This document shows, one piece after another, positions 236 to 12,333 of a stretch of DNA of 64,000 nt. The position numbers and the translations under genes are program-made. The stretch is taken from the NCBI GenBank assembly GCA_902810705.1, contig CADDYU010000003.1, positions 1-64,000 on the forward strand, in the 5' to 3' direction. A model generated the notes under the pieces. That model saw only the letters and a list, made by a program, of their open reading frames with translations, was not told the origin of the DNA and searched no databases. How positions within the stretch are numbered: position 1 is the first letter of the stretch; each line of letters starts with the position of its first letter. The DNA is from Methylococcaceae bacterium. Lineage in GTDB: Bacteria; Pseudomonadota; Gammaproteobacteria; Methylococcales; Methylococcaceae.

Positions 236-544
236 TCAATCGCGGTTCGCGATCGCATTCTTTTGGGCGGTCCGGATCCGCTCCGCGATGCCCAGGGGGC
301 TGGCCTCATAAGCGGCCTTCGCCGCGTCCAGGGCAGCTTGGGCCGTTGCCGCCTCCTCCGCCGTCAGTGGCAGGCGGCCGGCGACGTGGGTGGCGTTCGG
401 CACGGCGTTCAGGATGGCGGCCCGGTTCGGGTGCTCGTGAACGGAAATCAGCCGATCGGCCTCTTTCCGGCCAGCGAGACAAATGGCCGTCCCGATGACC
501 TCGACCTTCCGGCCGTCTTCGGTGGTTTTGATAAATGTACTCAT
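236..544 (-). CDS. Unrecognised 102-residue protein at the end of the nif-linked operon
   Basis: I do not recognise this protein. It starts MSTFIKTTEDGRKVEVIG, followed by a short beta-like stretch and a strongly Ala-rich, probably helical C-terminal half (about residues 60-100). It has no signal peptide or membrane segment and a single Cys near residue 22. The ATG at 544 was chosen; a GTG four codons upstream (556) is also possible, and neither has a clear Shine-Dalgarno sequence. It follows the fmdB-like gene by 62 bases on the same strand and appears to be the last gene before a hairpin. Position suggests a role around Fe-S handling or nitrogen fixation, but that is inference only. Confidence 0.6.
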   Translation of the reverse strand: MSTFIKTTEDGRKVEVIGTAICLAGRKEADRLISVHEHPNRAAILNAVPNATHVAGRLPLTAEEAATAQAALDAAKAAYEASPLGIAERIRTAQKNAIANRD

Positions 545-606
545 GGCGGACTTCACGGGTTGGGGAGGAATCGATCACCGCGACATTGGGCGAGGATCGG
601 CATGAT

Positions 607-843
607 CTATGATTTGAGGCGCGGCCGCTCCGAAGGGGCGTAATGGCTGAAATGGCCTTCCCGCGCCGCTTGCGTTCGGGCGCGGGATAGGAGGTCGGCG
701 GTCCTGTCTTGAGGAGCCGGCCGGGACAATCGCTTTTCCAGGCTTTGGCTCCCGCATTCCGGGCAGGCCGGAACGGTGGATCGGTTGATTAAGAGCTCAA
801 AGTCCTTGCCGCACTGGTGGCAATGATAATCGTAGATCGGCAT
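607..843 (-). CDS. FmdB-family zinc-ribbon protein
   Basis: A 78-residue protein of the FmdB regulatory-protein family. It starts with the family's typical MPIYDYHC and carries two Cys pairs (CHQC near residues 8-11 and CPEC near 27-30) that would bind one zinc. The C-terminal half is basic and low in complexity. The start at 843 is set by this N-terminal pattern; six more codons are open upstream to a GTG at 861. It lies 25 bases after bolA in the nif-linked operon. FmdB-like proteins were named from the formamidase/amidase region of methylotrophs and their function remains poorly defined; small zinc ribbons of this type also occur in nif clusters. Confidence 0.75.
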   Translation of the reverse strand: MPIYDYHCHQCGKDFELLINRSTVPACPECGSQSLEKRLSRPAPQDRTADLLSRARTQAAREGHFSHYAPSERPRLKS

Positions 844-868
844 AACAGGGCTCTCGGCCACGTTGAAA

Positions 869-1141
869 TTATTCTCCAGAGCCGGATGACGCCTCGGCGC
901 GTTGCGGCTCCTGGCGCCATTCCGAGGGCGTATACACTTTCATGGTGAGGGCGTGCAGCGCGCCGCTCGCGAGCGGCTCTTTGACCGCCGCCAGCACCTT
1001 TCTCTGGCGTTGAACCGGGGTCAGCCCTTCGAACGCGTCGCTGACCACCACTACCGAGAAGCTGCAACCCTCGCCCGAGACGGTGAGCCGGCAACCCGGG
1101 ATCTCGGTTTCGATCAATCGGCTGACTTCGGAAATTTCCAT
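869..1141 (-). CDS. BolA-family protein (BolA2/IbaG type)
   Basis: A 90-residue BolA-family protein with the central V-S-D-A-F-E-G-L stretch (about 33-40), the LTPVQRQRKV helix and the conserved His at residue 63 in the ALHALTMKVY segment. BolA proteins pair with monothiol CGFS glutaredoxins and together coordinate a [2Fe-2S] cluster using this His. That partner is encoded immediately upstream, with only five bases between the two genes, so a dedicated Grx-BolA complex is a strong inference. The tail (about 75-90) is variable. It belongs to the nif-linked operon, suggesting it helps deliver or repair Fe-S clusters when nitrogenase is made. Confidence 0.87.
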   Translation of the reverse strand: MEISEVSRLIETEIPGCRLTVSGEGCSFSVVVVSDAFEGLTPVQRQRKVLAAVKEPLASGALHALTMKVYTPSEWRQEPQRAEASSGSGE

Positions 1142-1146
1142 GACGA

Positions 1147-1476
1147 TTAATCCGTAGTCGGAGTAGCGACGGCGTGTTCCAGCAAGGCTTTGAGCTCGCC
1201 CTTTTGAGCGATCTCGGTAATGATGTCGCTACCGCCGATGAGTTCGCCTTTCACGAACAATTGAGGAAAAGTCGGCCACTGCGAGATGGCGGGCAGCTTT
1301 TCCCGGATGGACGGCGCCTGGAGCACGTTCACGTAGGCGAAGGCAACGCCCGCCGCCTGGAGCGCCGCCACGGCCTTGGCGGAGAACCCGCATTGCGGCA
1401 TCTCCGGCACTCCCTTCATGTAGAGGAGGATGGGATGGGAGGCGATCTGCTCGCGGATGGTGTCTTCGATGCTCAT
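1147..1476 (-). CDS. Monothiol CGFS glutaredoxin (Grx4/GrxD type)
   Basis: A 109-residue monothiol glutaredoxin with the diagnostic CGFS active site at residues 29-32, the KGVPEMPQ approach loop, the cis-Pro WPTFPQLF segment and the GGSDI glutathione-binding motif. Such proteins hold a [2Fe-2S] cluster with glutathione and act as cluster carriers. The start at 1476 has a GGGAG upstream. It sits 34 bases after a [2Fe-2S] ferredoxin gene and five bases before bolA. The nif setting matches the nif-associated monothiol glutaredoxin of Azotobacter-type diazotrophs; whether it replaces or supplements a housekeeping grxD elsewhere cannot be told here. Confidence 0.92.
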   Translation of the reverse strand: MSIEDTIREQIASHPILLYMKGVPEMPQCGFSAKAVAALQAAGVAFAYVNVLQAPSIREKLPAISQWPTFPQLFVKGELIGGSDIITEIAQKGELKALLEHAVATPTTD

Positions 1477-1510
1477 GGGAGCTCCCTATCAAGAAAAAAG
1501 ATCTCGCGCC

Positions 1511-1819
1511 TCAAAATCCGGACGCGAAACCCAGCAATTCGACGGTAATGTCTTCCATGCCGGTGATCCTGGCCTGGCAGGCCAGACGCGACTTGGAGCC
1601 GACGCCCACCAAGGTGTCCAGCTTTTCGTTCTCGGTGGCGGCGATCTTCGACAGGCTTTTTCGGCCCGTCTGCACGAAGATATGGCAGCTGCCGCACTGG
1701 GCGTTGCCGCCGCACTTGTGCAGGATGTTTTCGTCGGCGGCCAGCACGGCCTCGAGCAAGCTCGTGCCCTCCTTGGCTTCGACGGTCTTGCCGGAGGGCA
1801 GGATGGTGACGGTGGGCAT
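1511..1819 (-). CDS. [2Fe-2S] plant/adrenodoxin-type ferredoxin, nif-associated
   Basis: A 102-residue soluble [2Fe-2S] ferredoxin. Cluster ligands are visible at Cys36, Cys42, Cys45 and Cys81 (C-x5-C-x2-C ... C), the adrenodoxin-like spacing. It resembles isc-type Fdx but differs clearly from the fdx at 4303-4644, so the operon encodes two such ferredoxins. The ATG at 1819 is chosen because AAGGAGG stands nine bases upstream; an open GTG frame to 1885 has no such support. Likely role: an electron carrier for cluster assembly or to nitrogenase-related enzymes; the partner is not shown by the sequence. Confidence 0.9.
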   Translation of the reverse strand: MPTVTILPSGKTVEAKEGTSLLEAVLAADENILHKCGGNAQCGSCHIFVQTGRKSLSKIAATENEKLDTLVGVGSKSRLACQARITGMEDITVELLGFASGF

Positions 1820-1881
1820 GGTAGGTTTCCTCCTTAGGTTTTGGTGGATCAAAAAACCGGAATTCCTCTTAACTAAAGCGC

Positions 1882-2346
1882 TCACAGTCCCGCGGCGAGC
1901 GCGCCGATCACCGATCCGCCCACGGTATCGGCGCTGTCGAGCTCCCGCAGTTTGCCGAGCAACCGCTCACAACCCTCGCTGTCGCCTTGGCGCAAGCGGA
2001 TGAAGGCCAGGGCCTTGAGCGAAAAAAGATAAAAATGCTGGGGACTGTCATGCCGGGTCCAATCGGTGGTGTCCGGGGTGAGCGTCTCATAGGTCTCCGG
2101 AAACCCGCCCTGCGCCGCGGCGGCGGCCAAAGCCGAGCGCGCCGCTTGTTCCGCCTCCGCCAGCCGCCCTTTGTAGAAATAAAACTTGTACAGCGAAAAA
2201 TATACGGGCAAGGCCTGCGGCGCCTCCCGACGCGCTTGCTGCAACAACTCCTCGGCCCGCGCCGTATCGGCGTAGGCGCCCATGGCGTCTTCCAGCAGTT
2301 TGCCGATCCGGGGCGGCACCGCGCCCGCATAGAACGCCTCGCGCAT
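1882..2346 (-). CDS. TPR-like helical protein of nif clusters
   Basis: A 154-residue, mostly helical protein with TPR-like repeats. An N-terminal block (1-40) precedes a segment reading LPVYFSLYKFYFYKGRLAEAEQ (split here by two half-repeats), then a second helical repeat around 100-135 that includes LKALAFIRLRQGDSEG. No signal peptide or membrane segment is seen. It starts 24 bases after the thioredoxin-like ferredoxin stop. Small TPR proteins like this are found beside ferredoxin and nifW genes in several gammaproteobacterial nif clusters, probably as protein-interaction or assembly factors, but no biochemical role can be read from the sequence. Confidence 0.75.
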   Translation of the reverse strand: MREAFYAGAVPPRIGKLLEDAMGAYADTARAEELLQQARREAPQALPVYFSLYKFYFYKGRLAEAEQAARSALAAAAAQGGFPETYETLTPDTTDWTRHDSPQHFYLFSLKALAFIRLRQGDSEGCERLLGKLRELDSADTVGGSVIGALAAGL

Positions 2347-2370
2347 GACGAATCCCTGGCTTCCTGCCGT

Positions 2371-2697
2371 TCAGCTCCACACGGCCTCGGGGGCCAGCAA
2401 GCGCTCGACCGGCACGCCTTTTTGCAGATGCTCGGCCACGATCTCGCCCACATCGTCAGGCTTGACGCCGGCATACATCACGCCATCCGGGTAGACGAGC
2501 ACGGCCGGACCCGAATCGCAGGCGCCGAGACAGCCGGTGGTGGTCAGGGCGAATTGCCCGTAGAGCCGCCCTTGCTCGAACGCTTGGGCGAACGTCTGCA
2601 ACACCGACGCGCAGCCGAGCTGCGCGCAGGAACCGCGCGGATGGCCGGGGGGCCGGGCTTGGGCGCAGACAAACACATGCTTGGCGGGTTTAGCCAT
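2371..2697 (-). CDS. Thioredoxin-like [2Fe-2S] ferredoxin
   Basis: A 108-residue thioredoxin-fold [2Fe-2S] ferredoxin of the Azotobacter FeSI (Shethna protein) and Aquifex Fd type. The four expected cysteines are visible as VFVCAQ (residue 11), GSCAQLGC (24 and 29) and GCLGAC (56 and 60), followed by the PAVLVYPDGVMY strand typical of the family. The start has GAGG seven bases upstream. It lies 70 bases after nifW. Thioredoxin-like ferredoxins recur in nif clusters and probably take part in electron transfer or FeMo-cofactor maturation; the precise partner is not known from this sequence. Confidence 0.88.
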   Translation of the reverse strand: MAKPAKHVFVCAQARPPGHPRGSCAQLGCASVLQTFAQAFEQGRLYGQFALTTTGCLGACDSGPAVLVYPDGVMYAGVKPDDVGEIVAEHLQKGVPVERLLAPEAVWS

Positions 2698-2767: not shown

Positions 2768-3106
2768 CTAGGATGATCGTTTGCGACTGAGCAGACTGGT
2801 TTTCAGACTGTCGAGCGAAACACTCTTGCCATCCTGCTCCTGGAAGATCTTGAAAACTTTTTCCTGAGCCGCGCTCGATCGCACGAAATCGTCATGGGCC
2901 TGAGCGAGATATTGTTTGCACAGGTCCCACGCCGAGGCGTCGTCCAGGTCGTCCGGGATCGGTGTCCTGGAGAGGTATTGGTTGAAGCGCTTGAGGATAT
3001 GCAGACGATTGACGTGCACCACCTCGGGTCGATACGCGATGCCGAAGAAATCGAAAAACTCCTCGGCCGCCGAGAAACCTTCGATGCGTTGCAGTACGGA
3101 ATGCAT
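2768..3106 (-). CDS. nifW: Nitrogenase stabilizing/protective protein NifW
   Basis: A 112-residue NifW. The family's N-terminal pattern is clear: a [14 protein letters not shown] motif followed by [17 protein letters not shown]. NifW associates with the MoFe protein and is linked to its maturation or oxygen protection. I place the start at 3106, where GAGG stands nine bases upstream and the length matches the family; the frame continues to an ATG at 3136 with no ribosome site. It follows nifV by 39 bases, the same nifV-nifW order as in Azotobacter. It is one of two unmistakable nif genes in the window, and makes the whole operon nitrogen-fixation-related. Confidence 0.95.
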
Positions 3107-3145
3107 GGGTTGTGCCTCTGGGATGGGTCGTACCATTGTGATAGT

Positions 3146-4300
3146 TCACGAGACCGCGAGGCCGGAACGAGGCTCGGACGCGACGGTCTCCCGATAAAAA
3201 GCCTGAAGCTCGGCGGTGCTCGGCGGCCGCTTGGTCCGATTCGCGTGCAGGCGGATGCGCCGGAGCAGCTTGGCGGCAGCGATTTCGTTCAGAGTGATCC
3301 CGAGCTCGCGGTAGCGTTGGACGACGGCGCGCGCTCCCGAATGCTTGCCCAATACCAGCCGATGCTCGCGGCCCAGTTCCTTGGGATTCACGCCCTGATA
3401 ATTGAGCACGTTCTTGAGAAGGCCATCGACATGAATGCCCGCCTCGTGAGTGAACACGGCCTCCCCGACGATGCTCTTGTTGACGGCCACCGGCCGCCCC
3501 GAGGCCCGCGCCACGAGTTCCGAGATCGCGCCGAACCGGCTCACGTCGATCCCGGTGGGCCGCCGGTACAACTGGTGCAGGGCCATGACGGTTTCCTCAA
3601 GGGCCGCATTGCCGGCCCGTTCGCCGAGACCGTTGACGGTGGTGTTGACATGGCTCGCCCCGGCCTGGACGGCCAGCAGGGTATTGGCGGTCGCCAGGCC
3701 GAAATCGTTGTGGGCGTGCATTTCAATGTCGAGATCCACGGCTTCCACGAGGCGCCGGATACGCTCGAAAGCGGAGACCGGATCCAGGAGCCCTAGGGTG
3801 TCGGCGAACCGGAGCCGGCGGGCGCCGGCCCGCTCGGCGGTGTCGGCCACCCTGAGAAGAAAATCCGGGTCGGCGCGGGAAGCGTCCTCGCTTCCCACAC
3901 AGACTTCCAGGCCGCTGTCGCGGGCGCGCCGAACGTAACGGTCCACCGTGGCGATCGCCCAGTCGCGATCGCGCCCGAGCTTGTAGCGCAGCTGGATGTC
4001 CGAAACCGGAATCGACAAATTGACCCAATGGGCGCCGCAGCCCGTGGCCGCTTCGAGATCGGCCTCGCACATCCGGCCCCAGACCATGAGCCGCGAAGGC
4101 AGGCCCAGCCCCGCGATGGCGGCGATGATCTCGCGTTCCTCCGGCCCCATGGCCGGAATGCCGATTTCCATCTCCGGCACGCCGGCTTCGGCCAGGGCGC
4201 GAGCGATGGCGAGCTTTTCCTCGGCGTTGAAGGCGACTCCGGCGGTCTGTTCGCCGTCCCGAAGGGTAGTGTCGTTGACGATGATCTGCCCCGGGTTCAT
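3146..4300 (-). CDS. nifV: Homocitrate synthase NifV
   Basis: A 384-residue homocitrate synthase. It condenses acetyl-CoA and 2-oxoglutarate to homocitrate, the organic ligand of FeMo-co. The DRE-TIM metallolyase signature is present: TTLRDGEQT at residues 11-19, the metal-binding HAHNDFGLA segment, and the [14 protein letters not shown] loop, plus [10 protein letters not shown] in the C-terminal part. Lack of the long C-terminal regulatory domain separates it from LeuA, and the nifW neighbour favours NifV over lysine-pathway homocitrate synthase. The start at 4300 lies two bases after the fdx stop, with AGGAAGG upstream, so it is translationally close to the isc genes. Confidence 0.96.
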
Positions 4301-4302
4301 CC

Positions 4303-4644
4303 TCAAGCCTTCCTTTCTTTGGCGAGATTCCGGCTGTAACGGGGAATCTCGATGGTCAGATCGGCACCCTTGACAAAGGCCTGGCAGGCCAGCCGGGAAC
4401 AAGGTTCAAGGCCCCAGGCGCGATCCAGCATGTCTTCCTCGGCCTCGTCGGGCTCGTCTAGCGTGGCGAAGCCTTCCCGCACGATGACGTGGCAGGTGGA
4501 GCAGGCGCAGGCATGCTCGCAGGCGTGCTCGATCTCGATGTGGGCCGCGAGCAGGGCCTCGCAGAGGGTTTGGCCCTTGCGCGCCTTGATGACGGCGCCT
4601 TCCGGACAGAGTTCGGCGTGCGGCAGGACGGTGATGTTGGGCAT
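4303..4644 (-). CDS. fdx: ISC-type [2Fe-2S] ferredoxin
   Basis: A 113-residue ferredoxin of the isc operon. Ligands are Cys42, Cys48, Cys51 and Cys87, and the acidic stretch [12 protein letters not shown] typical of Fdx lies between them. Fdx supplies electrons for cluster assembly on IscU through IscS. It is two bases from both neighbours (hscA upstream, nifV downstream), so the isc and nif parts form one transcription unit. The length and the C-terminal RYSRN-like tail match isc Fdx. Confidence 0.95.
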
Positions 4645-8264: not shown

Positions 8265-9482
8265 CTAGTGCGCGGCGGCCCATTGCACGGAATCGAGGTC
8301 GATGCCGTCCTTGTACATCTCCCACAACGGGGAGAGTTCGCGCAGGCGCTCGACCTTCTCCCTGATTAGGGAGATCGCGAAATCGACGTCGGCCTCGGTG
8401 GTGAAACGGCCCAGGGTGAATCGGATGGAGCTGTGCGCCAGCTCGTCGCTCCGCCCGAGCGCTCTCAGCACATAGGAGGGCTCGAGGCTCGCCGAAGTGC
8501 AGGCGGAGCCGCTGGAGACGGCGAGATCCTTAAGGGCCATCATCAGGGATTCGCCTTCCACGTAGTTGAAGCTCACGTTGAGGTTATGGGCCACCCGCTG
8601 TTCCAGATCGCCGTTCACATAAACCTCTTCGATATCGCGGATGGCGGCGAGCAGCTTGTCCCGGAGCCGCCGAATCCGGCTCGATTCCTCGGTCATTTCC
8701 TCGCGGGCCAGGCGGAAGGCCTCGCCCATGCCGACGATCTGATGGGTCGCGAGGGTACCGGAACGCAAGCCCCGCTCGTGCCCGCCGCCGTGCATCATGG
8801 CCTTGAGGCGCACCCGCGGCTGACGGCGCACGTACAGCGCGCCGATGCCCTTGGGTCCGTAGGTTTTGTGGGCGGAAAAAGACATCAAATCGACCGGCAG
8901 GGCTTGCAGGTCGATGTCGACCTTGCCGGTGGATTGGGCGGCATCGACGTGGAAGATCACGCGATGCTCGCGGCAGATCGCGCCGATGGCGGCGATATCC
9001 TGCACCACGCCGATTTCGTTATTGACGTGCATGACCGAGGCGAGAATGGTGTCGGGGCGAATCGCCGTCCGGAAGGACTCCAGATCCACAAGGCCGTTGG
9101 GCAGGGGATCGAGATAGGTGACTTCGAAGCCTTGGGTTTCGAGCTCGCGCATGGTGTCGAGGACCGCCTTGTGCTCGGTCTTGACGGTGATGAGATGGCG
9201 GCCTCGCGTCTCGTAGAAGTGAGCCGCGCCCTTGATCGCGAGATTGTCGGATTCGGTCGCGCCGGAGGTCCAGATGATTTCCCTGGGATCGGCATTGACC
9301 AGTTTCGCAACCTCCTCCCGCGCATTCTCCACCGCCTTCTCGGCGGTCCAGCCGAAGCTGTGGGAGCGGCTGGCGGGATTGCCGAACGCGTCCGTCAGAA
9401 AGGGAATCATCTTTTCCGCAACGCGCGGGTCGACCGGCGTGGTCGCCGAATAGTCGAGATAAATCGGTAATTTCATGGGCAT
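8265..9482 (-). CDS. iscS: Cysteine desulfurase IscS
   Basis: A 405-residue group I cysteine desulfurase, a PLP enzyme that supplies sulfur for cluster assembly. PLP Lys206 lies in SFSAHKTYG and the persulfide Cys328 in SSGSACTS, exactly the E. coli IscS numbers; the C-terminal tail is the long IscS type. I start it at ATG 9482, with GGAG five bases upstream. The open frame to 9557 cannot be coding, because it runs into a sigma-54 promoter (9553-9568) whose start of transcription should fall near 9541. First gene of the operon; iscR, which normally precedes it, is absent. NifS is the alternative, but the long C-terminus and linked iscU favour IscS. Confidence 0.96.
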
Positions 9483-9552: not shown

Positions 9553-9568
9553 TGCAAGCCTTATGCCA
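9553..9568 (-). promoter_or_regulatory. Sigma-54 (-24/-12) promoter of the isc-nif operon
   Basis: Read on the minus strand the sequence is TGGCATAAGGCTTGCA, a GG-N10-GC match to the RpoN consensus with TGGCA at -24 and TTGCA at -12. Transcription would start near 9541, leaving about a 59-base leader before iscS. The NifA-type and IHF-like sites upstream make it a nif-class promoter. Confidence 0.88.
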
Positions 9569-9633: not shown

Positions 9634-9649
9634 TGTCATGTTCCCAACA
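9634..9649. promoter_or_regulatory. NifA-type upstream activator site for iscS
   Basis: TGT-CATGTTCCCA-ACA matches the NifA consensus TGT-N10-ACA. Its centre is about 100 bases upstream of the predicted iscS transcription start, within the normal range for NifA sites. Confidence 0.78.
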
Positions 9650-9795: not shown

Positions 9796-9811
9796 TGTCG
9801 GCTTCGCTACA
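9796..9811. promoter_or_regulatory. NifA-type upstream activator site for bfd
   Basis: TGT-CGGCTTCGCT-ACA is a second TGT-N10-ACA site. Its centre is about 144 bases upstream of the predicted start of the bfd transcript. It could also add to the activation of iscS. Confidence 0.68.
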
Positions 9812-10285: not shown

Positions 10286-10326
10286 CCGCGAAATGGGTTC
10301 AGACAGCCATTTCGCGGTTTTTTTTA
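10286..10326 (+). terminator. Intrinsic terminator of the bfd gene
   Basis: CCGCGAAATGG pairs perfectly with CCATTTCGCGG (11 bp, 10-base loop) and is followed by a run of nine T. It acts on the plus strand and overlaps the last codons of the convergent DUF364 gene, so the two functions share the same bases. Confidence 0.92.
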
Positions 10327-11294
10327 GATACTCTAGAACTCTGCCGCCTTGCGTCCCAGAGCTTTTTATAGGTCGTGTCCAAACGGGACAGCCGCCGGTG
10401 TGCGCTTTCGAGGCGGTCGAATTCTGGAAAACGATCGGCTCTCTCCCGATACCACTGGTCCATGCTGGCGCTCAATTTCTCCTTTTCAGCGAAAACCTCC
10501 GCGATCCGCTGCTTCAGCCAGGCCAGACAATGGGCATCCCCTAGTTCCGCCAGCCGATAGCCCACCGGGCCCTCGAAGATGCGAACGCCGCCCCCCTCCG
10601 CCACGGTTCGGCGCAGGGCTTCGGGATCGATCACCTCGATGCCGGCCAGCGCATCGATGCCGAAATCGATCAGTTCCGGCAGCCAAGGCACGGTGGGCCC
10701 CATCAGCACCGTTCGCGCGGCGCGGGACAGTTCCGCCAACCGCGGAAAAGTCTTGTTGGTGAGGGAGCTCCCGGTCAGGAATACCCAATCGGCTTCCGGC
10801 AGGAGGAATTCGCAGGCGGGGTCTGGAAAATCGTCGGCCCCGGGGTGACGCTCCAAGACGCTGAGCCGGCAATGCTCGGCCAATCGAGCGAGGCCGGGAT
10901 AGCGGCCAACCACGACCACCCGCTGGTCAGCGAGTGCCGGCAGGAAATGCTCGAACACGGAGAGATTGGGCGGAAGCAGCGGGCCGGGCGCGACCCTGGT
11001 GAATTCCGGCGGCGGCGCGAGATCGGCCAGCGCCGCATTGGTGGCCGCCATGCCCACCGTGGCCTGATAGGGCTCCCAGGCTGTAAGCCAGGCGGCGAGC
11101 TCGGCCACCGGCCGGCCGCACAGGGTGCCCGGCCAGTTGAGGGTGCGGGTGGGGACTTGCGGGCTCATGGCGAGACCGACACCCTGGTCAGTGCGGCACA
11201 AGGTCCAAACCGGTCCGATGACGACTTCGCGCACCGGGTCGGGCCGCGCCGCGTAATCGGCGAGTATCTCGTAAACGGCGCGCGGGTGGCTCAT
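10299..11294 (-). CDS. DUF364/DUF4213 domain protein (putative metal chelation)
   Basis: A 331-residue protein of the DUF364 family, whose N-terminal DUF4213 part resembles an enolase N-terminus. Family marks seen: GMAATNAAL near residue 100, a VVVVGRYPGL Rossmann-like strand, LLPEADWVFLTGSSLTNKT, and LMGPTVPWLP. The 40-residue C-terminal tail is charged and helical and seems to be an addition. Members are suspected to act in heavy-metal chelation and are often found near nif genes. The ATG at 11294 is chosen because 76 further open codons overlap glk and lack family similarity. It follows glk by 52 bases, yet its 3' end lies against the nif-regulated bfd. Confidence 0.78.
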   Translation of the reverse strand: MSHPRAVYEILADYAARPDPVREVVIGPVWTLCRTDQGVGLAMSPQVPTRTLNWPGTLCGRPVAELAAWLTAWEPYQATVGMAATNAALADLAPPPEFTRVAPGPLLPPNLSVFEHFLPALADQRVVVVGRYPGLARLAEHCRLSVLERHPGADDFPDPACEFLLPEADWVFLTGSSLTNKTFPRLAELSRAARTVLMGPTVPWLPELIDFGIDALAGIEVIDPEALRRTVAEGGGVRIFEGPVGYRLAELGDAHCLAWLKQRIAEVFAEKEKLSASMDQWYRERADRFPEFDRLESAHRRLSRLDTTYKKLWDARRQSSRVSKKNREMAV

Positions 11295-11346
11295 GCCTTC
11301 AAGCTCCGGACGCGCCGCCCGCTTGAATCGTTCCGCCCATCCGTCC

Positions 11347-12333
11347 TCAAAGCAGGCAACGTGCCGCGTAATCCGCGGCGCCCAAGAGCCCGGTGTTGGA
11401 ATTGAGCGCCACCCGTACCGGAATCTTGCGCAAGAAGCCGGAAAACCGGCCCTTGGCGCAGAAGCTTTCCAGAAAAGAGCCATCGGTGAGAGCAGGCAGG
11501 ATTTTCGGCGCGATGCCGCCACCGATGAGCACGCCGCCGCGGGCCAGGCACTTCAGGGCCAGATTGCCTGCCTCGGCGCCGTAGATGCGGGTGAACAGGC
11601 TCAAGGCTTGGCGGGCCAGGGGATCGCCTTTTTCGAGAGCATGATGGCTGATCTCGCGGGCGGGATCCTCGCTCGCCGCGAGCGCGACCGCCAATTCCGG
11701 CGATTCCGGCGCGTGCTGGGCCTGCCGCAGATATTCGTAGACGTTGACGATCCCAGGCCCGGACAGGATCCGCTCATAGCTGACATGGCCGCTAAATTTT
11801 CCGCGAAGATAAGCGAGCAGGCCGTCCTCGAGGGCATCGTTCGGGGCGAAATCGGCATGGCCGCCCTCGGTCGCGAGGGGATGGTAATTCATCCCGTCCC
11901 AGAACAGGATCGCTTCCCCGAGTCCGGTTCCGGCGGCGAGCACCGCGCGATTGCCCTTGACCGGCTCCGCGTCGGGATTGAGATCCAGCCATTCCTCCGG
12001 GCCTAGCCGGAGCAGCCCCAAGGCCATGGCCTGAAGATCGTTCAGCAGCTTGACCCTGGCGACTCCCGTGCTCGCCGCCAGCACGCGCTCGTCGATTACC
12101 CAGGGCAGATTCGTGATTCGGGACCGGCCCTCGATCACCGGGCCCGCCACGCCGAAGCAGGCCGCTTCCAGGGGCATGCTTTGATCGCTCAGGAACTCGG
12201 TCACGATCTCGTCCAGCGAGGCATGGTCCGCACTCGCGAAGATCCTCTCCCGCACCCGCACCAATCCGTCGGTGCTCTTTTCGTACTGGGCCAGAATGGT
12301 CTTGGTTCCGCCCACGTCGCCAGCTAATAACAT
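11347..12333 (-). CDS. glk: Glucokinase
   Basis: A 328-residue bacterial glucokinase (ROK-unrelated Glk family), phosphorylating glucose with ATP. It has the phosphate-binding AGDVGGTKT at residues 4-12, LLNDLQAMA with the catalytic Asp, AAGTGLGEA and the ATEGGHADFAP motif. The start has GAGGAG eight bases upstream. It lies on the minus strand 26 bases after the DUF411 gene and before DUF364, possibly in one transcript with YjbQ and DUF411. Confidence 0.94.
   Translation of the reverse strand: MLLAGDVGGTKTILAQYEKSTDGLVRVRERIFASADHASLDEIVTEFLSDQSMPLEAACFGVAGPVIEGRSRITNLPWVIDERVLAASTGVARVKLLNDLQAMALGLLRLGPEEWLDLNPDAEPVKGNRAVLAAGTGLGEAILFWDGMNYHPLATEGGHADFAPNDALEDGLLAYLRGKFSGHVSYERILSGPGIVNVYEYLRQAQHAPESPELAVALAASEDPAREISHHALEKGDPLARQALSLFTRIYGAEAGNLALKCLARGGVLIGGGIAPKILPALTDGSFLESFCAKGRFSGFLRKIPVRVALNSNTGLLGAADYAARCLL

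Follow-up and report, generated by a model that had tools for sequence, protein, structure and literature searches.

Described nif accessory proteins and the locus under study

In Azotobacter, NifW and NifZ bind the immature molybdenum-iron (MoFe) protein of nitrogenase, NifDK, before its P-cluster is completed, and NafY and NifY bind the cofactor-less form and shield a cofactor ligand before the iron-molybdenum cofactor (FeMo-cofactor) is inserted (PMC6016461). The present analysis concerns a stretch of 64,000 nucleotides from a Methylococcaceae bacterium (assembly GCA_902810705.1, contig CADDYU010000003.1, positions 1 to 64,000 of the forward strand; hereafter ‘the window’), and in particular a gene near its beginning that encodes an unnamed protein of 102 residues (positions 236 to 544, minus strand; hereafter ‘the orphan’), which lies at the 3' end of a run of isc and nif genes. 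An original prediction, made from the sequence alone, had put this protein forward as a possible new nif accessory factor, and the analyses described below indicate that it very probably is one. Its link to nif appears strong on genomic grounds, while the particular step at which it would act has been deduced more tentatively from position and exclusion.

Among the described systems, NifY and NafY (PF16844 plus PF02579) resemble the orphan in being restricted to nif and, at many loci though not in the window, in their position: nifY follows nifK in four of six inspected genomes of one nitrogenase lineage (lineage B, defined below), which is the place taken by the orphan in many Burkholderiales. 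The two proteins were never met in one genome; however, the orphan is far shorter (102 versus approximately 245 residues), has no domain in common with NifY or NafY, and displays no detectable homology to them. The early MoFe assembly factors NifW and NifZ are also small nif accessory proteins, and nifW is found six genes upstream of the orphan in the same run, but the orphan belongs to a different family and NifW is also present in genomes that lack it. NifT/FixU (PF06988), a small protein of unknown role encoded after nifK, provides a further likeness, although the orphan is unrelated to it and both genes coexist on a plasmid of Methylococcus sp. EFPC2.

Conservation and predicted fold of the orphan

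The orphan begins at an ATG at position 544 that is common to 17 relatives, and the 18 proteins found in the window’s family align without gaps across 102 columns, 40 of which are invariant. Nucleotide differences are distributed over the three codon positions as 2899, 2499 and 7535 (153 pairs), and the rate of nonsynonymous change (dN) is 0.06-0.15 in six pairs with relatives, against a near-saturated synonymous rate (dS) of 0.9-1.9. The gapless alignment, the codon-position pattern and a dN far below dS together establish, beyond chance, that the orphan is a genuine gene on which purifying selection acts strongly. In a wider alignment of 74 rows the invariant positions are T8, V16, G25, E28, H38, P39, A55, G56, R57 and R89; no cysteine is invariant in the family, and the Cys22 found in Methylococcaceae is not retained.

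That family models do not recognise the protein, as had been claimed for it, was borne out by a search of Pfam and NCBIfam, in which no family scored above its cut-off, and the protein is annotated as hypothetical in two public records. When the 74 members were scanned singly, seven Pfam families appeared at E <=0.05, most of them in a single member and none above cut-off; HTH_20 matched weakly in seven of the 74 (best E 0.0047), and an identity with baeRF_family10 (PF18854) was rejected at 15.9 bits in one member of the 74, against a cut-off of 27.1. Both domains of NifY, DIMCO_N (PF16844) and Nitro_FeMo-Co (PF02579), were absent from the orphan and the 74 members at E 0.05. Among sequences in the PDB, a profile of the family found no more than three matches at E <=1, the best at 0.13. 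The predicted structure (predicted local distance difference test, pLDDT, 89.3; predicted template modelling score, pTM, 0.70) consists of strands followed by two long C-terminal helices, for which Foldseek listed 55 matches at E 10 and none at E <=0.001. VIA-align aligned 203 chains, four of them at Z of at least 2, the best weak match being a PH domain (1eaz; Z 3.9, 74 residues aligned, root-mean-square deviation 3.4), although the absence of a match proves nothing. A weak second match to the orphan, at E 4.7e-4 and with one stop, was observed in genome G018.

Distribution of the orphan and its association with one nitrogenase lineage

The concern that the orphan might have no homologues in other diazotrophs did not hold, since 18 of the 38 genomes sampled from the window’s family and six of the 360 sampled from its class encode it (two genomes belong to both samples, giving 22 different carriers). 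Every one of the 22 carriers is nifH-positive: the 18 family carriers fall among 29 nifH-positive genomes, leaving 11 such genomes without the orphan, none of the nine nifH-negative family genomes carries it, and the six class carriers fall among 32 nifH-positive genomes. All 18 family carriers also possess nifW. A sample of 301 genomes from the order, searched for the orphan alone, contained 19 carriers, one of which (G203) lies outside the family. A scan of genome contigs further yielded 77 named loci, which include near-copies and of which seven represent the same genomes as the family sample or near ones. These loci derive from Methylococcaceae, Thiobacillus, Hydrogenophilales, Comamonadaceae, Paraburkholderia, Ideonella and Rhodocyclales-type genera, as well as Bradyrhizobium, Azorhizobium, Xanthobacter, Roseibium and Sphingomonas azotifigens, and core nif genes are present in the retrieved flanks of 67 of the 77. 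The survey of neighbourhoods thus favours the suggestion of a nif accessory factor, although co-occurrence with nitrogenase genes, as read from genomes, should not be equated with function.

A quickly built NifH tree of 62 rows, supported by SH-aLRT (Shimodaira-Hasegawa-like approximate likelihood ratio test) values alone, clarified which diazotrophs carry the gene. The truncated NifH of G379 was excluded, and an in-frame stop in the row from G025 was read as X. The tree divides, at an SH-aLRT of 100, into a lineage A of 30 rows, 26 of which come from the 22 carriers, and a lineage B of 32 rows, none of which comes from a carrier. Over the 33 NifH rows of the window’s family, presence of the orphan requires one change of label; this and the division between A and B argue that the orphan follows the nitrogenase and not the taxon. 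Its restriction, as found here, to bacteria with one nitrogenase lineage makes the orphan a probable and hitherto overlooked helper in the building or running of that enzyme. NifH of two clearly distinct lineages was observed within a single family (G000-G037), and each lineage has an accessory set of its own.

NifY displays a contrasting distribution. With a lineage-B query composed of DIMCO_N and Nitro_FeMo-Co, and with a match counted as full-length if it starts no later than query residue 11, a full-length NifY was found in none of the 22 carriers, which display only partial matches of the NifX type. A full-length NifY is present in 11 family genomes, namely ten of the 11 nifH-positive non-carriers and G035, and in 21 of the 26 nifH-positive class genomes that lack the orphan. 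G035 has no nifH match at E 1e-80, in an assembly that is 83% complete with 6% contamination. In four of the six lineage-B regions inspected nifK is followed by nifT and nifY, while in lineage-A carriers the place after nifK is taken either by the orphan (Burkholderiales) or by a [2Fe-2S] ferredoxin (the window’s genome and EFPC2). At the level of sequence, then, the orphan is a conserved coding gene that co-occurs with nifH, resides in nif clusters, frequently next after nifK, and follows one NifH lineage, and none of its carriers displays a full-length NifY.

Genomic contexts of the orphan

The orphan was encountered in several distinct nif contexts. In the arrangement of the window, isc genes, nifV and nifW lead into the genes that end with the orphan, and this arrangement recurs in seven genomes (the window’s genome, G004, G005, G006, G007, G008 and G018). 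In the Burkholderiales the order, taken from the annotation of Paraburkholderia aromaticivorans, is nifH-nifD-nifK-orphan-unknown protein-nifE-nifN-nifX. In the Rhizobiales and Sphingomonas the orphan adjoins nifS, Rieske or fdxB/nifQ genes, and in a Methylococcus-type context it follows genes for a flavin oxidoreductase and a ModC-like ATPase and precedes, in six genomes, a DUF364 gene. In Methylococcus sp. EFPC2 the nif cluster that includes the orphan is carried, with nifT, on an 89.6-kb plasmid. Over the 77 loci, the nearest labelled gene upstream is nifK in 24 and a [2Fe-2S] ferredoxin gene in 23, and the nearest downstream belongs to a cluster termed c7 in 41. The proposed co-occurrence with nifW and nifV is therefore true of the window’s context, which is but one among several, and the Fe-S setting, accurate for the tail of genes in the window, does not extend to loci where the orphan follows nifK or a ModC-like gene.

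Several neighbours merit separate mention. Cluster c7 comprises a second unnamed protein of approximately 160 residues, present at 44 of the 77 loci (for example L071:10352-10879 and L120:2766-3248). In the nif clusters of many Burkholderiales its gene lies directly 3' of the orphan, and four gammaproteobacterial carriers also have it in the vicinity; a Pfam and NCBIfam search of c7 gave no match. A protein of the flavin amine-oxidoreductase family is encoded near the orphan at 18 of the 77 loci (for example L025:5235-6806), in Methylococcaceae, Thiobacillus and Rhizobiales. In the window, a DUF364/DUF4213 heavy-metal-chelation protein is encoded upstream of the isc-nif run (10299-11522, minus strand), and it is a homologue of this protein that directly follows the orphan in the six Methylococcus-type genomes.

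Promoter and putative activator sites

The isc-nif run of the window begins at iscS (approximately position 9482), upstream of which lies a sigma54-type -24/-12 element, TGGCATAAGGCTTGCA (9553-9568, minus strand), with one mismatch to TGGCAC-N5-TTGCW. An element with zero or one mismatch is found 81-99 bases before iscS in all seven genomes of the window type. It is accompanied by a NifA-type upstream activator site, TGT-N10-ACA (9634-9649), which lies at -163 to -181 from iscS in seven of seven genomes, and by a second such site (9796-9811) in six of seven. These motifs are not enriched by number, as the -24/-12 pattern with up to two mismatches occurs 21 times across the window against 28.9 expected, and activator-type sites occur four times against 4.05; the argument rests instead on their place and conservation. 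Because that place is conserved in seven genomes, we conclude that the isc genes and nifVW are under the control of NifA and sigma54, and the tail of genes that ends with the orphan probably is as well. A scan for promoter-like sites in the gaps between bolA and fmdB (25 bases) and between fmdB and the orphan (62 bases) found none, which fits co-transcription through the orphan, and we infer that transcription would continue from the iscS promoter to that point.

Similar signals are associated with the orphan elsewhere. Among 69 loci having at least 3 kb of upstream DNA, 35 display a -24/-12 element together with an activator-type site upstream, and the reversed-sequence control gave none in 69. 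In the Burkholderiales these sites are mostly located 4.2-4.9 kb upstream of the orphan, at nifH, and in six Methylococcus-type genomes approximately 2.8 kb upstream. Beyond the orphan, a G+C hairpin directly after its stop was considered as a terminator and rejected, its energy being ordinary (z -0.43), and a minus-strand scan directly after the orphan found no terminator-like site. Divergent from the iscS promoter is a gene for a BFD-like [2Fe-2S] protein (PF04324; 9969-10199, plus strand).

A proposed role in maturation of the MoFe protein

Where an organism has no NifY, a small protein that is controlled by NifA and whose gene directly follows nifK makes a reasonable candidate for a NifY-like duty, as judged by position and exclusion. 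On the full proposal, the orphan would be dedicated to one lineage of proteobacterial molybdenum nitrogenase, would be made together with nif and isc proteins from a NifA/sigma54 promoter, and would act on the maturing NifDK, of which it would hold or complete an immature form at, or close to, the step served by NifY and NafY in the other lineage. This proposal in its entirety is put forward with slightly less than even confidence; its most specific element, action at a NifY/NafY-like step, is a tentative suggestion, and contact with NifDK and the maturation step itself are what we infer from position and exclusion. A bolder version, in which the orphan would take the place of NifY/NafY without being homologous to them, such that the two nitrogenase lineages employ unrelated small proteins to hold cofactor-less NifDK, is doubtful, as is its corollary that the lineage to which Methylococcus, Paraburkholderia and Azorhizobium, among others, belong might rely on an unnamed chaperone.

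Were the proposal correct, it would matter in practice. The nif gene sets intended for crops and other hosts are drawn largely from Azotobacter and Klebsiella, and the helpers NifY and NafY of those organisms are missing, with one exception, from the examined genomes with lineage-A NifH. If the orphan is the lineage-A helper, gene sets built from the nitrogenases of Methylococcus, Paraburkholderia or Azorhizobium would need to include it, and the manner in which cofactor-less NifDK is protected where NifY is absent would become a directly testable question.

A number of observations weigh against this proposal. Neither in the window nor in Methylococcus does the orphan adjoin nifK; it has no detectable sequence family in common with NifY; and ten of the 77 loci have no core nif gene in the retrieved flank (Methylococcus, Thiobacillus, and a few short or nif-poor flanks). 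NifY itself is not beside nifK in two of the six lineage-B genomes, as only nifT occupies that place in G044 and neither gene does in G027. Three lineage-A genomes (G313, G506 and G512) have neither the orphan nor a full-length NifY, so that the job would be either dispensable or done otherwise, and G601 combines a lineage-A NifH with a full-length NifY and no orphan. The orphan is absent from the majority of symbiotic plasmids that have a NifX-like match: of 72,556 plasmid records, four match the orphan and 175, mostly rhizobial, match the NifX/NifY query. Finally, a single split in the NifH tree essentially accounts for the mutual exclusion of orphan and NifY, which may simply mark the ancestry of the clusters.

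Competing explanations for the orphan

A role in metal supply, in which the orphan would handle molybdenum or iron for the FeMo-cofactor together with the ModC-like ATPase and the DUF364 protein, is suggested by the six Methylococcus genomes, where the orphan lies between a ModC-like gene (TIGR02142, 237.6 bits, cut-off 285) and a DUF364 gene (PF04016) in a stretch that begins at a sigma54/NifA-type site. The DUF364 gene upstream of the window’s own run and the near-invariance of His38 and His53 agree with such a role. It is nevertheless unlikely, given that ModC-like matches occur at only 14 of the 77 loci and DUF364 at two, that the commonest position of the orphan is after nifK, that His53 is not invariant, and that Cys22 of the Methylococcaceae is lost in the wide alignment.

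Alternatively, the orphan might reside in the nif island by inheritance and serve a side function, for instance in regulation or in protection from oxygen, as opposed to maturation of the cofactor or the MoFe protein. Its tie to one lineage and not to all diazotrophs, the many free-living or methanotrophic fixers among its carriers, and the flavin oxidoreductase gene nearby at 18 of the 77 loci would all accord with this explanation, as would the state of two plasmid copies: that of Paraburkholderia sprentiae is degraded by an in-frame stop and a frame change, that of Bradyrhizobium sp. BWA-3-5 is shortened, and both are unannotated. The frequent position of the orphan right after nifK and its strong conservation make a side function improbable. 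The two decayed or shortened copies (L121:12001-12263 and L122:12001-12273) both come from root-nodule isolates; they constitute a lead and are too few for an ecological rule.

An explanation closer to the immediate surroundings of the window holds that the orphan is a partner of the neighbouring Fe-S genes (the glutaredoxin, BolA, ferredoxins and FmdB) and would help to supply nif proteins with [2Fe-2S] or [4Fe-4S] clusters. The gene order is identical in seven genomes including that of the window, an FmdB homologue is found at 35 of the 77 loci, fmdB, grx and the orphan occur together in Methyloglobulus morosus, and a related glutaredoxin, GrxD of Azotobacter, feeds NifU (PMC13382767). Glutaredoxin and BolA genes, however, are each present at only three of the 77 loci, lineage-B nif regions can contain a Grx-BolA pair in the absence of the orphan, and the family has no invariant cysteine, so that this explanation has little probability. 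That the orphan is a spurious or decaying reading frame, as its lack of recognition by any family model might imply, is refuted with near certainty by the gapless alignment, a dN far below dS, the model with a pLDDT of 89.3, and the wide distribution. Set against these competitors, the orphan is best regarded, on comparative grounds, as an unnamed, conserved protein that is bound to one nitrogenase lineage and that qualifies well as a candidate nif accessory factor.

The isc-nif run and its seven-gene tail

The seven small open reading frames reported between positions 236 and 2697 are all present on the minus strand, and form the 3' end of a 16-gene run in which iscS, iscU, two iscA-type genes, hscB, hscA, the isc ferredoxin gene, nifV and nifW precede them, with spacings of -43 to 70 bases. 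Six of the seven match known kinds (two ferredoxins, a TPR-like protein, a glutaredoxin, BolA and FmdB), in agreement with the description of the tail as mostly Fe-S linked. The genes from iscS to hscA occupy 9482-4647 (minus strand) in an order that is conserved in relatives; iscU was identified by PF01592, while hscA, hscB, the two iscA-type genes and iscS are presumed identities, read from their translations. They are followed on the same strand by an isc-type ferredoxin gene (4303-4644; TIGR02007, 171 bits, cut-off 132), and then, directly upstream of the tail, by nifV, encoding homocitrate synthase (3146-4303; TIGR02660, 542 bits, cut-off 463, E 6.6e-163), and nifW (2768-3136; PF03206, E 1.6e-33).

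The tail itself, also on the minus strand throughout, opens with a thioredoxin-like [2Fe-2S] ferredoxin of the Azotobacter nif type (2371-2697; PF01257, 29.8 bits, cut-off 24.8), which also matches NF041613 ‘fdxn_Azotob’ at E 2.2e-36 but below the cut-off of that model. The TPR-like protein (1882-2346) is conserved in six relatives, but no TPR model reaches its cut-off against it (TPR_19, 22.4 bits, cut-off 25). A Fer2-type [2Fe-2S] ferredoxin follows (1511-1822; PF00111, 45.4 bits), with a likely ATG at 1819, and then a CGFS monothiol glutaredoxin of the Grx4 type (1147-1476; TIGR00365, 141.5 bits, cut-off 117.1), BolA (869-1141; PF01722, 53.8 bits, cut-off 25.7, matched over profile positions 25-76 of 76) and the FmdB-family zinc ribbon protein of 78 residues (607-843; TIGR02605, 57.5 bits, cut-off 31.3). 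Since the window starts at base 1 of its contig (C3 of a 375-contig assembly), 235 bases are visible 3' of the orphan; in the six relatives with the same arrangement, no open reading frame adjoining the orphan on that side is common to all, and a few farther ones are common to two.

The glutaredoxin does contain the CGFS motif, and exactly five bases separate its gene from bolA, as had been noted. Both are additional copies in the genome, with other Grx4 matches on contigs C59 (over cut-off) and C35 (under cut-off) and another BolA on contig C71. The window’s glutaredoxin is 66% and 61% identical to two from lineage-B nif regions, compared with 53% for the copy on C59 and 62.5% for that on C35, and is thus closer to the nif copies than to that of C59 and about level with that of C35; its BolA is 42% and 45% identical to the lineage-B nif-region copies versus 39% to that of C71. 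The nif regions of G019 and G044, which belong to lineage B and lack the orphan, likewise contain a pair of these two genes. In Azotobacter, Grx-nif is located in a nif cluster and GrxD hands [2Fe-2S] clusters to NifU (PMC13382767). The window’s glutaredoxin resembles Grx-nif and GrxD plus BolA of Azotobacter vinelandii in being a CGFS glutaredoxin tied to nitrogen fixation, and differs in being paired with BolA inside an isc-nif run; a nif-linked Grx-BolA pair is already of a known kind. FmdB-type zinc ribbon homologues lie near the orphan at 35 of the 77 loci, and a literature search combining FmdB, nitrogen fixation and zinc ribbon found no paper; a nif role for such a protein seems unstudied.

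A further observation concerns the naming of one relative. A contig titled Methyloversatilis universalis (L039, G006:C77) carries a Methylocaldum-type isc-nif run with an orphan that is 88% identical, and its genome is placed in the window’s family; the title of that contig is probably wrong.

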